A stretch of 32,386 nucleotides of DNA, taken from the NCBI GenBank assembly GCA_025054575.1, contig JANWZN010000020.1, positions 1-32,386 on the forward strand, in the 5' to 3' direction. Source of the stretch: Geminicoccaceae bacterium (lineage in GTDB: Bacteria > Pseudomonadota > Alphaproteobacteria > Geminicoccales > Geminicoccaceae). Numbering within the stretch: position 1 is the stretch's first letter; every line of letters starts with the position of its first letter. The notes under the pieces are model-generated. The model was not told where the DNA came from, did not search any database, and saw only the letters and a list, made by a program, of their open reading frames with translations. Positions 12,079 to 17,090 of the stretch are shown here, piece after piece. A program made the translations under genes and the position numbers.

Positions 12079-14532
12079 ATGAGCCTCGCTCTCGAGCGTT
12101 CCCGTCCCGTCGAGCCGCCGCCGGCAGCAGCACTCCCCGAACCCTTCGCGTCCTGGTTCGCAGCGCGCGGTTGGCGGCCGCGCCGCCACCAGCTCGCCAT
12201 GCTGGCGCTCGCGAGAGAGGGGCGCGACGCGCTGCTCGTGGCGCCCACGGGCGGCGGCAAGACCCTCGCGGGCTTCCTCCCGAGCCTCGTGGCCCTCGCC
12301 GAGCGGGGCGGCGGCAGCGGGATCCACACCCTCTACGTCTCGCCCTTGAAGGCGCTCGCCACCGACGTCGCGCGCAATCTCGAAGTGCCGATCCGCGAGA
12401 TGGACCTCGCCGTGACCGCCGCGGTGCGGACCGGCGACACGCCGGCGGCACGGCGGGCCCGGCAGCGACGACGGCCGCCCGATTTGTTGCTGACCACGCC
12501 CGAATCGCTGGCACTCCTGCTGTCCTATCCGGACGCGGCCGAGCGCTTCGCGCGGCTCGAGGCGGTCGTGGTCGACGAGCTGCACGCCTTGGCCGAGAAC
12601 AAGCGCGGGGTCCTCTTGGCCCTTTGCCTCGCGAGGCTGAAGGCGCTCGCGCCCGCGGCCCGTTTCGTGGGGCTCTCCGCGACCGTGGCCGAGCCCTGGG
12701 CGCTGCGTCGATGGCTCTCCCCCGCCCCCGAGCGGGTTGCCCTCGTCGAGGGCGAAGCGGGGGCCGAGCCCGTGGTGGAGCTCTTGATCCCCGAAGGCCC
12801 CATGCCCTGGGCCGGGCATTACGCGACCCATGCCGCCCCGGCCGTGCTCGATCTGATACGCCGCCATCGGACCAGCATCGTCTTCGTCAACACCCGCGCC
12901 CAGGCCGAGGTCCTGTTCGGGCTTCTTTGGCGGCTCAATCACGACAATCTGCCGATCGCGCTCCATCACGGCTCGCTCGACGTCGAGCAACGGCGGAAGG
13001 TCGAGGCGGCGATGGCGGCGGGCAGGCTGCGAGCGGTCGTCGCCACCTCTTCGCTCGATCTCGGGATCGACTGGGGCGATGTCGATCTCGTCGTCCAGGT
13101 GGGCGCGCCCAAAGGCGCCGCCCGGCTCCTGCAGCGGATCGGCCGCGCCAATCACCGGCTCGAGGAGCCGTCGAAGGCGGTGCTGGTCCCGGCCAATCGC
13201 TTCGAGGTGCTCGAATGCCTCGCGGCGCGCGAGGCGGTCCGGGCCGGGGCGCTCGACGGTGGCGCGATCGCGCCGGGCGGCCTCGACGTGCTCGCCCAGC
13301 ACGTCACGGGCGTGGCCTGCGCCGGGCCGTTCGACGCCGATCGCCTCTACGACGAGGTGCGCTCGACCGCGCCCTATGCCGGGCTCGCTCGCGCCGACTT
13401 CGATGCGGTGCTCGACTTCGTCGCCACCGGCGGCTACGCGCTCGGCCGCTACGAACGGTTCCGGCGGCTCGCGCGTGGCGCCGACGGCCTCTGGCGCCTC
13501 GCCGACCCGCGCCTCGCCAAACAGTGGCGGATGAACGTCGGGACGATCGTCGAGGCCCCGGTCATGAAGGTCCGGCTCGGGCCCCGCGGCCGCCGGCTCG
13601 GCGAGGTGGAGGAACATTTCGTGAGCACGCTCGCCCCGGGCGATACCTTCCTGTTCGCCGGCCGGCTGCTCGAGTTTCTGGGCGTGCACGAGGACGAGGT
13701 GATCGTTCGCCGGGCGAAGGGCGGCGGCGAGCCCAAAGTGCCGGCCTATGCCGGCGGCAAGCTGCCGCTCACGAGCGCGCTTGCAACGAGGGTCAAGGCC
13801 ATGCTCGCCGACCGCGGGCGCTGGCCCGACCTGCCAGCACCGGTCCGGGAATGGCTGGACGCCCAGGCACGCCGCTCGGCCACCGGCGAGCCGGACGAGC
13901 TCCTGGTCGAAACCTTCCCGCGCGGAGGTCGGGCGTTCCTGGTCGCCTACCCGATGGCCGGCCGCAACGCCCACCAGACGCTCGGCATGCTGTTGACCCG
14001 GCGGATGGAGCGTTGCCGGTTGGCGCCGCTCGGCTTCGTCGCCTCGGACTACTGCATCGCGGTTTGGGGACGCCGGCCGGTCGAACGACCGGAAGAGCTC
14101 TTCACTATCGATCTCCTGGCCGACGATCTCGAGGAGTGGATGGCCGAGAGTTCGGTGATCAAGCGTACGTTCCGCAATTGTGCGGTCGTTGCGGGCTTGA
14201 TCGAGCGGCGCCATCCGGGCCGGCAGAAGACCGGTCGGCAGGTCACGATGAGCGCCGATCTGCTCTACGACGTTCTGCGCAAATACGAGCCCGACCACGT
14301 GCTCTTGCGCGCGGCCCGTGCCGAGGCCGCACAAGGGATGACCGATATCCGCCGGCTTTCGGATCTGCTGAACGCGGTCCAGGGCCGGATCCGCCACGTC
14401 CGTCTCTCCCGCGTCTCGCCCTTCGCGGTCGCGATCATCGCCGGAATCGGCAAGGAGTTCGTGGGCGGCGAAGCGCTCGACCAGGAGCTCGAGGCGGCGG
14501 TCGCCGAGCTGGTCGCGGAGGCGATGAGGTGA
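12079..14532 (+). CDS. Ligase-associated DNA damage response DEXH-box helicase (Lhr-core family)
   Basis: This 817-residue superfamily 2 helicase has Walker A APTGGGKT at residues 55-62, Walker B DELH at 166-169, motif III LSAT, and motif [12 protein letters not shown]. These are followed by the winged-helix and Lhr-specific C-terminal domains, including [16 protein letters not shown] and a metallo-effector-like stretch. The length and ending match the helicase that usually travels with an ATP-dependent DNA ligase, a beta-lactamase-fold exonuclease and PdeM in a four-gene repair cassette. Here only PdeM is near (from 16350), and a foreign ATPase gene on the other strand separates them. ATG at 12079 is chosen because it is the first start after the divergent argC control region. 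No SOS box was seen upstream. Confidence 0.92.
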
Positions 14533-14552
14533 GCGGCGAACGAGCATCGGTC

Positions 14553-16184
14553 TCAGTCGGGGAGGCCCTTTCGATCGGGGCGACCGATCCACTCGAGCAG
14601 GAGCTTCCGGAGGAAGTCCCACACGTCCCCTTGGCCTGGGCGAACATAGGCAGGGGCGGCAGGATTCGAGCCGAGTCGCTTGAAGACCTGCGTAACCCAA
14701 GAGCCTTTGTTAGCTGGGACGGCGAGTTCCGGAAGCCAGGAGGTGAGTTCGCCGCTTGGCACCACGAAAATTCCATACTCGGCTAGATTGGACAATAAGT
14801 TCGAGGCACTTTCTTTGTTGTCCGAGGGAAGCATGTGGATGCCCGGCTGTGGCATGCTGGGATTACCATGTTGCGTGAATGCCTGTTGAAGGAGAGCCCG
14901 GGTCTGCGACCAGCCTTGCCGCAGCGGGCTGGGAACGCTCGCGGGATCCAGCAGAGCATTCCAGTCTCCTTCACCGCGGAGGAAGTCGAGATCGACGATG
15001 GCCGCGGCGGGCACGCCCATGGTGCGAAGGGCCCCGACGATTCGGTGGACCGTTTGCCGGTTCTGTGCCGCCAAGAAGCGGGCCCAGGGAAGCCCGGACT
15101 CCACTTCACCCAAGCGGTACGCGATCTCTTCGTAGAACGCACGGTCGTTGTCGCTTTCCGTGACCACTGCTCCGTCGTGGAACAGAGCCGAAAAGACGTG
15201 TGCGCTTCGGAACAGGGGATCGTTGAAGAAGCGACGCAACGTGTCGGCCTCGACCAAGCGGCCGCGGGACTTGCCGTCTCGGTACTCCAGGCGGAGGATA
15301 CGGGCGTCCGAGGGGCCGAGCAGGCAACCGATCACGAAGTCGGCACTGTGCGTCGCCGCCAAGAGCTGGAACGTCTTCTGCTGCGCCAAGCGGGAGAGTT
15401 GCGTGCCAAGCTTGCGAGCGAGCGGGGGGTGCAGAAACGCATCGGGTTCGTCGACGAGCAGGGTTCGAACGAGGCCCGAGGCGGCGTGGAGGATGGTTCC
15501 GAGATAAGCCCGGATGCCGTCGCTCGTTTCATACACAGGCAGCATCGACGCCAGTTTTTCTCGCTTTTTCCCTGAAATGTGAAACTCCAGGCCATTAGTA
15601 GGCGAAGTGGACAGGCGGAAAACAACATTTCCGTACTCTGTCAACGGATCACGTACGAGCCACCATCGCGGGAAGATTTCGCGGATAAGCTCATTTACAA
15701 GATTTCGGTACACTTCATCGTTCATGAACAGACATGCCCGCGCGCTGAGCTGGCGCTCCAAGGAGCCACGAGCCTTCTGAAGCACGCCGATGCGTGCGCC
15801 CACGTCGAGATGGACCGTGTAGCGTTGAATAAACACGCGCCTGCGAACGGCTTCGTTTCTAATAACCTCTCCGATAAGTTGTTTCGGTATATATTTTTGA
15901 TGGTCACCTAATCCAACGTTGATATATTCATCGCTGTCCCAATCGATGTCGGTCGGTGCAATCTGGCTCAAGAGACGCTTCAGAACGCTCTCCTCGGGCG
16001 CTCGATGTGTGATGTTCGTTACCATGCGACGCGGCTCGAGCGGGGCCTCGATGGCGTGCCGAATCTCAAGAAGGGCTAAACTCTTACCGGAATTGTTGGG
16101 GCCTACCAGCAGGGTAACGCCGTGAAGGGGTACCTGGATCTTGGTGGGTGGTTCCGTGAACGTCAGTTCCGCACGTTCCAACAT
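14553..16184 (-). CDS. OLD-like ATPase (ABC-type ATPase with TOPRIM-like C terminus), probably acquired
   Basis: I do not recognise a named family member. This 543-residue protein starts with Walker A GPNNSGKS (28-35). A signature-like SDGIRAYL lies near 221-228, Walker B TLLVDEPD near 241-248 (Asp245, Glu246), and a switch histidine in AATHS (His279). After residue 335, [14 protein letters not shown] has the E-x3-D-x2-F spacing of a TOPRIM motif (Glu343, Asp347; the usual glycine is serine), and IVDLDFL gives a DxD at 398-400. This is the layout of OLD-family nucleases, many of which act in phage defence. No partner gene (UvrD-like GajB, reverse transcriptase) is adjacent. GC is much lower than its neighbours, most sharply in its 5' half (one 60-base line is 38%). 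ATG at 16184 was chosen because the ATPase fold begins there. It lies between the helicase and pdeM, opposite to both. Confidence 0.82.
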
Positions 16185-16214
16185 GGAGACTCGATCCTTC
16201 GCAAACGTTTGAAG

Positions 16215-16241
16215 ATTACAGTCCTCTCCCTGCGGTTTCAA
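16215..16241 (-). promoter_or_regulatory. Possible promoter of the OLD-like ATPase gene
   Basis: On the minus strand TTGAAA (16236-16241) and TGTAAT (16215-16220) are 15 bases apart and lie 31 bases upstream of the ATPase start. The boxes are good but the spacing is short by two bases, so this is tentative. Position within the low-GC block suggests the gene arrived with its own promoter. Confidence 0.35.
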
Positions 16242-16349
16242 TACTCGACGGCAGCCGCGGCCTTCGTGTAAAGCAACGGCGAGGATGGTTTGCGCCGGGC
16301 GCTGATGTCGACGCCGAGGCGTTTCCCGTTTCTTGAGCGAGGCGCAAGG

Positions 16350-17090
16350 GTGGCATTCGAACTGCTCGAGGTCCGGCTGGCCGGGCGAGAGTTTCTCCTG
16401 GATCCAGCTGGTGCCCTGTTCTGGCCCGAGCGACGGATGCTGGTCGTGGCCGACCTCCATCTCGGCAAGGCGGAAGCGCTGGCGCGGCGCGGACTTCTGG
16501 CCCCCCCTTACGAGTTCGGCGCGACGCTCGCACGGCTCGAATCGGTGATCGCGCGGCATCGACCGCAGCTGGTGGCGAGCCTCGGCGACGGCTTCCACGA
16601 CGGCCGTGCCGCGCGTGGCCTCGAGGGCGAGGCGTTCGACCGGCTCGCAGCACTGGTCCGCCGGCAGGAGTGGCTCTGGATCACGGGCAACCACGATCCG
16701 ACGATCCCGCTCGCTCTGGGCGGGGCCGTGCTCGATCGGCTCGTGCTCGACGGTCTTTCGTTCGTGCACGTGCCGACCGGCGCGGAGGGCGAGATCGCGG
16801 GGCATCTCCACCCGGCGGCACGGATCGCCACCGCGGCCGGCCGAATCCAGAGGCGGCGCTGCTTCGCGGCCGACGGGGCGCGGCTGCTGCTGCCCGCCGC
16901 GGGCACGCTCGCGGGCGGGCTCAACGTGCTCGATCCGGCGATCGCCGGCCTCTTTCCGGCGGGCTTCACGGCCTACCTGCTCGCGACCGATCGGCTGTTT
17001 CCGATCCCGGCGCGGCGGCTTCTTCCGGACCTCGATCCGCGCCGGCACCGCCTGCCGCTCGAGCGATCCTCTTCCGCGCCCGAGGCGTAA
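16350..17090 (+). CDS. pdeM: Ligase-associated DNA damage response endonuclease PdeM (metallophosphoesterase)
   Basis: This 246-residue calcineurin-like phosphoesterase belongs to the group found with the Lhr-type helicase. The metal-binding blocks are in order: Asp35/His37 in VADLHLGKAEAL, Asp80/His83 in LGDGFHD, Asn114/His115 in TGNHDP, His140, and His152/His154 in GHLHP. The N terminus (LAGREFLLDPAGALFWPERRMLVVADLH) is typical of PdeM. I chose GTG at 16350 because GAGG lies 7 bases upstream and the length then fits the family; an in-frame ATG at 16305 has no ribosome site but cannot be excluded. It normally follows the helicase gene directly; here it starts about 1.8 kb after the helicase stop because of the inserted ATPase gene. 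The photolyase gene follows after 29 bases. Confidence 0.9.
   Translation: MAFELLEVRLAGREFLLDPAGALFWPERRMLVVADLHLGKAEALARRGLLAPPYEFGATLARLESVIARHRPQLVASLGDGFHDGRAARGLEGEAFDRLAALVRRQEWLWITGNHDPTIPLALGGAVLDRLVLDGLSFVHVPTGAEGEIAGHLHPAARIATAAGRIQRRRCFAADGARLLLPAAGTLAGGLNVLDPAIAGLFPAGFTAYLLATDRLFPIPARRLLPDLDPRRHRLPLERSSSAPEA

Follow-up and report, generated by a model that had tools for sequence, protein, structure and literature searches.

A Class 1 OLD gene, probably acquired horizontally, between helicase and pdeM in a Geminicoccaceae repair operon, with threonine at a near-invariant metal-ligand position

How does a low-GC gene come to lie antisense between two genes of a ligase-associated DNA repair cassette, and what does its product do? 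The gene is located in a window of 32,386 nucleotides, the whole stretch of Geminicoccaceae DNA that was analysed, and it encodes a protein of the OLD family. OLD is the kind of ATP-driven nuclease by which phage P2 blocks rival phages. The explanation that we regard as likely is that a Class 1 OLD gene arrived by horizontal transfer and was inserted, with no other gene, between helicase and pdeM; its product would act as an ATP-gated abortive-infection nuclease, a function predicted from characterised members. Sequence comparison and a predicted structure establish here an ABC-ATPase head with an OLD-type TOPRIM domain, the lack of a partner gene, an empty site in congeners, and a prophage link of the relatives. 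The features of the locus are:

12079 to 14532, plus strand: host flank, ligase-associated DNA damage response DEXH box helicase (Lhr-type); NCBIfam TIGR04121, 1093 bits against a cut-off of 850.
14553 to 16184, stop codon included, minus strand: OLD-family ATPase/TOPRIM protein of 543 amino acids; open reading frame, Pfam, PADLOC and structure.
15177 to 16184, minus strand: ABC-ATPase part, residues 1-336; alignment of 60 relatives, and Foldseek and VIA matches to Rad50/SMC heads and to Ts OLD.
14556 to 15194, minus strand: TOPRIM and C-terminal part, residues 331-543; PF20469, a separate model and mapping onto P2 Old.
14742 to 14744, minus strand: codon ACC of Thr481, which aligns with P2 Old E543, a metal B ligand; residue alignment (PMC7049728).
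16185 to 16349, no strand assigned: upstream portion of the insert, 59% GC, separating the OLD and pdeM starts, which diverge; no match in congeners.
16350 to 17090, plus strand: host flank, ligase-associated endonuclease PdeM, which since the insertion probably starts at GTG 16350; NCBIfam TIGR04123, 194 bits against a cut-off of 150.

The OLD reading frame is intact over 543 codons on the minus strand, from the ATG at 16184 to the stop at 14553. Its ATPase motifs are a Walker A at G28-S35 (G28-PNNSGKS) with K34, a signature-like S221-D222-G223, a Walker B at D245/E246 and an H-loop at H279. K34, D245, E246 and H279 are conserved across the aligned relatives, as is characteristic of the N-terminal ABC ATPase of the OLD family. 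The Pfam models AAA_21, AAA_15 and OLD-like_TOPRIM all score above their cut-offs, the last of these (PF20469) over residues 334-400. In the whole assembly, the sole PF20469 match is at 14985-15185 of the window. The best defence profile is PADLOC 'Old' (1.6e-24), which also matches all 60 aligned relatives, and a profile-profile comparison matches the family profile to P2 Old with a probability of 97%. A single-sequence search of the PDB returned Thermus scotoductus OLD (Ts OLD, 6p74) as the sole match, and the same entry tops the family-profile search. No NCBIfam model matched the protein above its cut-off. A Toprim sub-profile gave only noise against PDB sequences, so it is Pfam, the profile of the full-length protein and the fold that carry the Toprim assignment.

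The AlphaFold model, built from a 60-sequence alignment, has a mean pLDDT of 88.7 and a pTM of 0.89. Foldseek with the full-length model ranks 6p74 first (2.6e-10), with the OLD nuclease of retron Eco8 next, then Rad50 heads and GajA. VIA aligns 343 residues between 1 and 531 with 6p74 (Z 15.1, rmsd 5.5, 18% identity); in most other rows the match is confined to the ATPase head. Residues 331-543 folded separately reach a pLDDT of 94.1; they align with the C-terminal parts of Xcc OLD and Bp OLD at Z of about 10, of 6p74 at 9.3 and of Bc GajA at 8. Retron Eco2 and PARIS AriB follow at Z 6 to 7.5, and unrelated folds stay below 6. Foldseek on this segment alone is weak, with a best E of 2e-3. Together with PF20469, the Z values of 8-10 against OLD and GajA Toprim structures identify an OLD-type TOPRIM fold in the predicted C-terminal domain. 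The original prediction, a 543-residue ABC-type ATPase with a TOPRIM-like tail lying antisense to its neighbours, is thus borne out by the reading frame, by Pfam and by comparison of the predicted structure with OLD, GajA and retron OLD proteins.

Relatives of the protein are patchily distributed. They occur in 12 of 385 genomes of the class (E 1e-10) and in 3 of 398 genomes of the phylum (E 1e-15), counts that use different cut-offs and that both include the window's own genome. A profile scan of GTDB genomes and IMG/VR found more than 100 loci in many bacterial phyla and some archaea, with 33 loci in IMG/VR. A single-sequence scan of IMG/VR and a tblastn search of INPHARED phage records gave no match. 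The relatives are 27-40% identical to the window protein, and the nearest intact one is at about 40%. In the tree, the window protein groups with nine alphaproteobacterial and viral-contig proteins (support 99) on a terminal branch of 1.56, compared with 0.2-0.6 in the sister group. P2 Old and YbjD fall far outside this group on long branches that make their placement unsure.

Among 117 proteins directly beside relatives there is no recurrent neighbour, with each Pfam family seen at most twice and each PADLOC family at most once. UvrD helicase, the window's helicase and pdeM were found near none of about 125 relatives. In four P2-like prophages (L141, L142, L150 and L151) portal and terminase genes lie near the OLD relative, which in two of them, L150 and L151, has a replication gene of gpA type on its other side. 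This gpA-portal locus is where P2 carries old and tin, and according to Rousset et al. (PMC9122126) it is a defence hotspot, lying between gpA and gpQ. A second, more distant OLD group (23-29% identity) is present on viral contigs L157-L165, directly beside an integrase-like gene. These contigs also have a gpA-like replication gene, and their OLD gene is not at the gpA-portal locus. The nearest relative by its C-terminal half (L119:5962-7093/L050, 48% identity) is an internally deleted, split copy, and a copy on a Paracoccus plasmid (L057:7926-9604) is split in two frames. Three relatives in all look broken (L057, L116 and L119, the last of these like L050). Such frequent decay is as expected of a dispensable gene.

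The catalytic site was mapped in an alignment of 122 sequences that includes P2 Old. E343, D398 and D400 align with the metal A ligands E398, D453 and D455 of P2 Old, forming the E...DxD set, and D347 and E479 align with E402 and D541 at metal B. The original prediction had listed Glu343, Asp347 and the DxD at 398-400, all found as described, and it stopped at these four residues. What is new is T481, in place of a near-invariant glutamate. Position 481 is Glu in 117 of the 119 ungapped sequences, P2 Old among them; Thr occurs only in the window protein, and one other sequence lacks Glu. A sequencing read error is unlikely, because a change from GAA or GAG to ACC needs two to three base changes. 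In P2 Old, alanine at the equivalent E543 abolished the lethal effect in recBC cells (PMC7049728). As T481 replaces this ligand, the nuclease activity of the window copy, including the usual two-metal cleavage, is uncertain. Ts and Bp OLD have Ser or Thr at the first of the paired metal-B positions and Glu two positions further along (PMC7049728). E479/T481 could be a working swap of this order, or it could be a loss.

Loss is the core of the main rival explanation, which we judge unlikely while giving it some weight. It holds that the protein is no longer a nuclease: either it works through its ATPase alone, as truncated YbjD does, or it is a copy in decay. The unique threonine, in a codon hard to ascribe to a read error, favours it, as do the long terminal branch and the broken-looking relatives. 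In addition, the anti-phage effect of YbjD persists without its Toprim domain (PMC13261556). Against it, the frame is open throughout, E343, D347, D398, D400 and E479 are all kept, and E479/T481 could be the swapped arrangement of Ts and Bp OLD. There is a slim chance that the substitution gives a retargeted or ATPase-only defence protein, stopping phages by means other than the usual two-metal cleavage.

The explanation that we favour, a horizontally acquired nuclease, draws on the structure of the junction. The OLD protein has no match in any of the five other genomes of the genus, and the 176 bases upstream of its gene are likewise absent from all five. In all five congeners the helicase gene and pdeM are adjacent on one strand, with their ends touching or overlapping (extrapolated gap -6 nt). 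Where further relatives from the family and class have the two genes on a single locus, the largest gap is 111 nt, apart from one genome with about 1.06 kb. In that genome (G035, from another family of the class) the junction is filled by a different gene (L028:2147-3169), which by eye is retroviral-type aspartyl protease-like and not OLD. The helicase-pdeM junction therefore tolerates insertions. In the window, the helicase stop (14530-14532) is 20 bases from the OLD stop, and the homology of pdeM to congeners picks up again near 16350-16375, no more than a dozen codons into the gene. This puts the insert at about 1.8 kb, made up of the OLD gene and approximately 165 bp, between flanks collinear with the empty sites. 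Its ends have no terminal inverted repeats or target-site duplication, apart from short repeats at chance level, and it carries no integrase, transposase or other mobility gene.

The insertion also bears on pdeM. The open reading frame lister starts this gene at TTG 16290, while homology to congeners suggests GTG 16350. Sequence comparison suggests that the ancestral start was lost or displaced by the insertion. In relatives, pdeM is probably translationally coupled to the helicase gene; in the window, its expression would now have to start within the insert or depend on read-through.

The composition of the gene sets it apart from the rest of the window. It is the lowest-GC gene-sized stretch (59% vs 71%); among stretches of 1632 nt, GC is lowest in the one that begins at 14660, at 58.3%, where the window as a whole averages 71.1%. 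The line of 60 bases at 15841, singled out originally at 38% as a sign of markedly lower GC, measures 38.3%. GC3 is 0.69 compared with 0.85-0.90, and a codon-adaptation-like index is 0.45 compared with 0.69-0.77, where the comparison is with window neighbours and excludes the values for pdeM (wrong frame), whose wrong-frame codons nevertheless form part of the reference set. The candidate promoter that had been proposed for the gene fares less well. A sigma-70 scan upstream found none at the scanner's quality, and inspection by eye gives a poor TTGAAA-17-TAATCT and an AAGGA ribosome-binding-like stretch. An Rfam search over 14400-16500 gave no match.

Acquisition is argued by absence of the gene from the five congeners, closed junctions and foreign codon use. 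The idea that an acquired gene had split the repair operon is strongly supported by the empty site in five of five congeners; rather than being carried here by all relatives with matching codon use, the gene is missing from every congener compared. The original prediction also called the acquisition recent. Presence and absence within one genus and foreign codon use uphold the acquisition; they do not extend to 'recent', because the nearest intact relative, at only about 40% identity, is too distant to date the event.

The position of the gene raises a further alternative, which we consider very improbable: that a repair protein was recruited to the ligase-associated cassette and works with the helicase and PdeM on damaged DNA and not on phages. 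The gene does lie between two ligase-associated DNA damage response genes, and its head resembles Rad50/SMC. However, ABC ATPases of this type generally have heads that resemble Rad50. The gene is antisense to both neighbours and missing from all five congeners, the helicase or pdeM accompanies none of the surveyed relatives, and prophage relatives occupy a defence hotspot. The least credible proposal, that the gene is the last surviving passenger of a larger mobile element or prophage, can appeal to relatives in P2-like and other viral contigs, but it conflicts with an insert limited to the gene and its short upstream part, with the lack of mobility genes and end repeats, and with the collinear flanks.

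We now return to an acquired abortive-infection nuclease. By analogy with characterised members, the protein would be an ATP-regulated dimer that is quiet in healthy cells. It would be released when a phage disturbs host DNA-end processing, which is RecBCD for P2 and probably AddAB or similar here, or alternatively by another phage cue. The TOPRIM site would then cut nucleic acid, either DNA or host tRNA, and phage growth would be stopped, probably at the cost of the cell. According to PMC13261556, P2 Old reacts when lambda Gam inhibits RecBC and is reported to cut tRNA, and Vc OLD nicks DNA with its ATPase required. Gabija reportedly acts against phages that block RecBCD (PMC12407980). Because P2 Old, Ts OLD and YbjD are only very remote relatives, the window protein may have another trigger and another target. 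Defence by a nuclease is not guaranteed either, since YbjD works without Toprim and the OLD relative Cran1 has a cell-cycle role instead of defence (PMC13261556, PMC12796447).

As a chromosomal case the locus is clean: a stand-alone OLD gene has entered a conserved repair operon, and the empty site is pinned down to within tens of bases. The locus also ties a widespread, uncharacterised Class 1 OLD branch (about 80 proteins sampled, spread over many bacterial phyla and some archaea) to the defence hotspot of P2. With its change from E to T at metal B, the protein is a natural variant on which the need of nuclease activity for OLD defence can be tested. The Class 1 OLD kind is known already; T481 and the clean empty site are out of the ordinary and place the case slightly above routine.

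Among known systems, the window gene is of Class 1, which comprises OLDs that stand alone, with no helicase, reverse transcriptase or split partner. Stand-alone OLDs of this class are described, namely P2 Old, Ts OLD, Vc OLD and YbjD (PMC7049728, PMC10568477, PMC13261556). The suggestion of an undescribed single-gene system is not borne out, in view of these examples and of the PADLOC 'Old' match. The accompanying remark that no GajB, reverse transcriptase or toxin-antitoxin partner is adjacent was correct, as the flanks are host repair genes and the relatives have no recurrent partner. Class 2 (Gabija) does not apply, the flanking helicase being Lhr-type and not UvrD-type, with no UvrD match near the relatives. 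For Class 3 (retrons), both adjacent genes are identified as other proteins and Rfam is silent over the region; for Class 4 (PARIS), the ATPase and TOPRIM parts are here in one 543-residue frame.

PARIS AriA/AriB and the retron Eco8 OLD share the ATPase head and have a related Toprim fold, but they depend on a further component, a split partner in one case and a reverse transcriptase plus ncRNA in the other; the window gene has neither. GajA likewise combines ATPase and TOPRIM, and its Bc form is matched by the Toprim part at Z 8, compared with 10 for Bp and Xcc OLD; the window protein is shorter and its gene has no adjacent GajB/UvrD helicase. YbjD (OldB) of E. coli is also a chromosomal stand-alone OLD that forms no operon with its neighbours (PMC13261556), although it is very distant in the tree and acts without Toprim and without a RecBC link. 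Ts OLD, also stand-alone, is the best structural match over the whole length, with S478/E480 as its metal-B pair where the window protein has E479/T481. P2 Old differs in its distant branch (18% identity over 167 residues), in having E543 where the window protein has T481, and in that the window gene is chromosomal. Its domain order is alike, its ATPase and TOPRIM residues match except for that one, and relatives of the window protein are found at its own gpA-portal locus.
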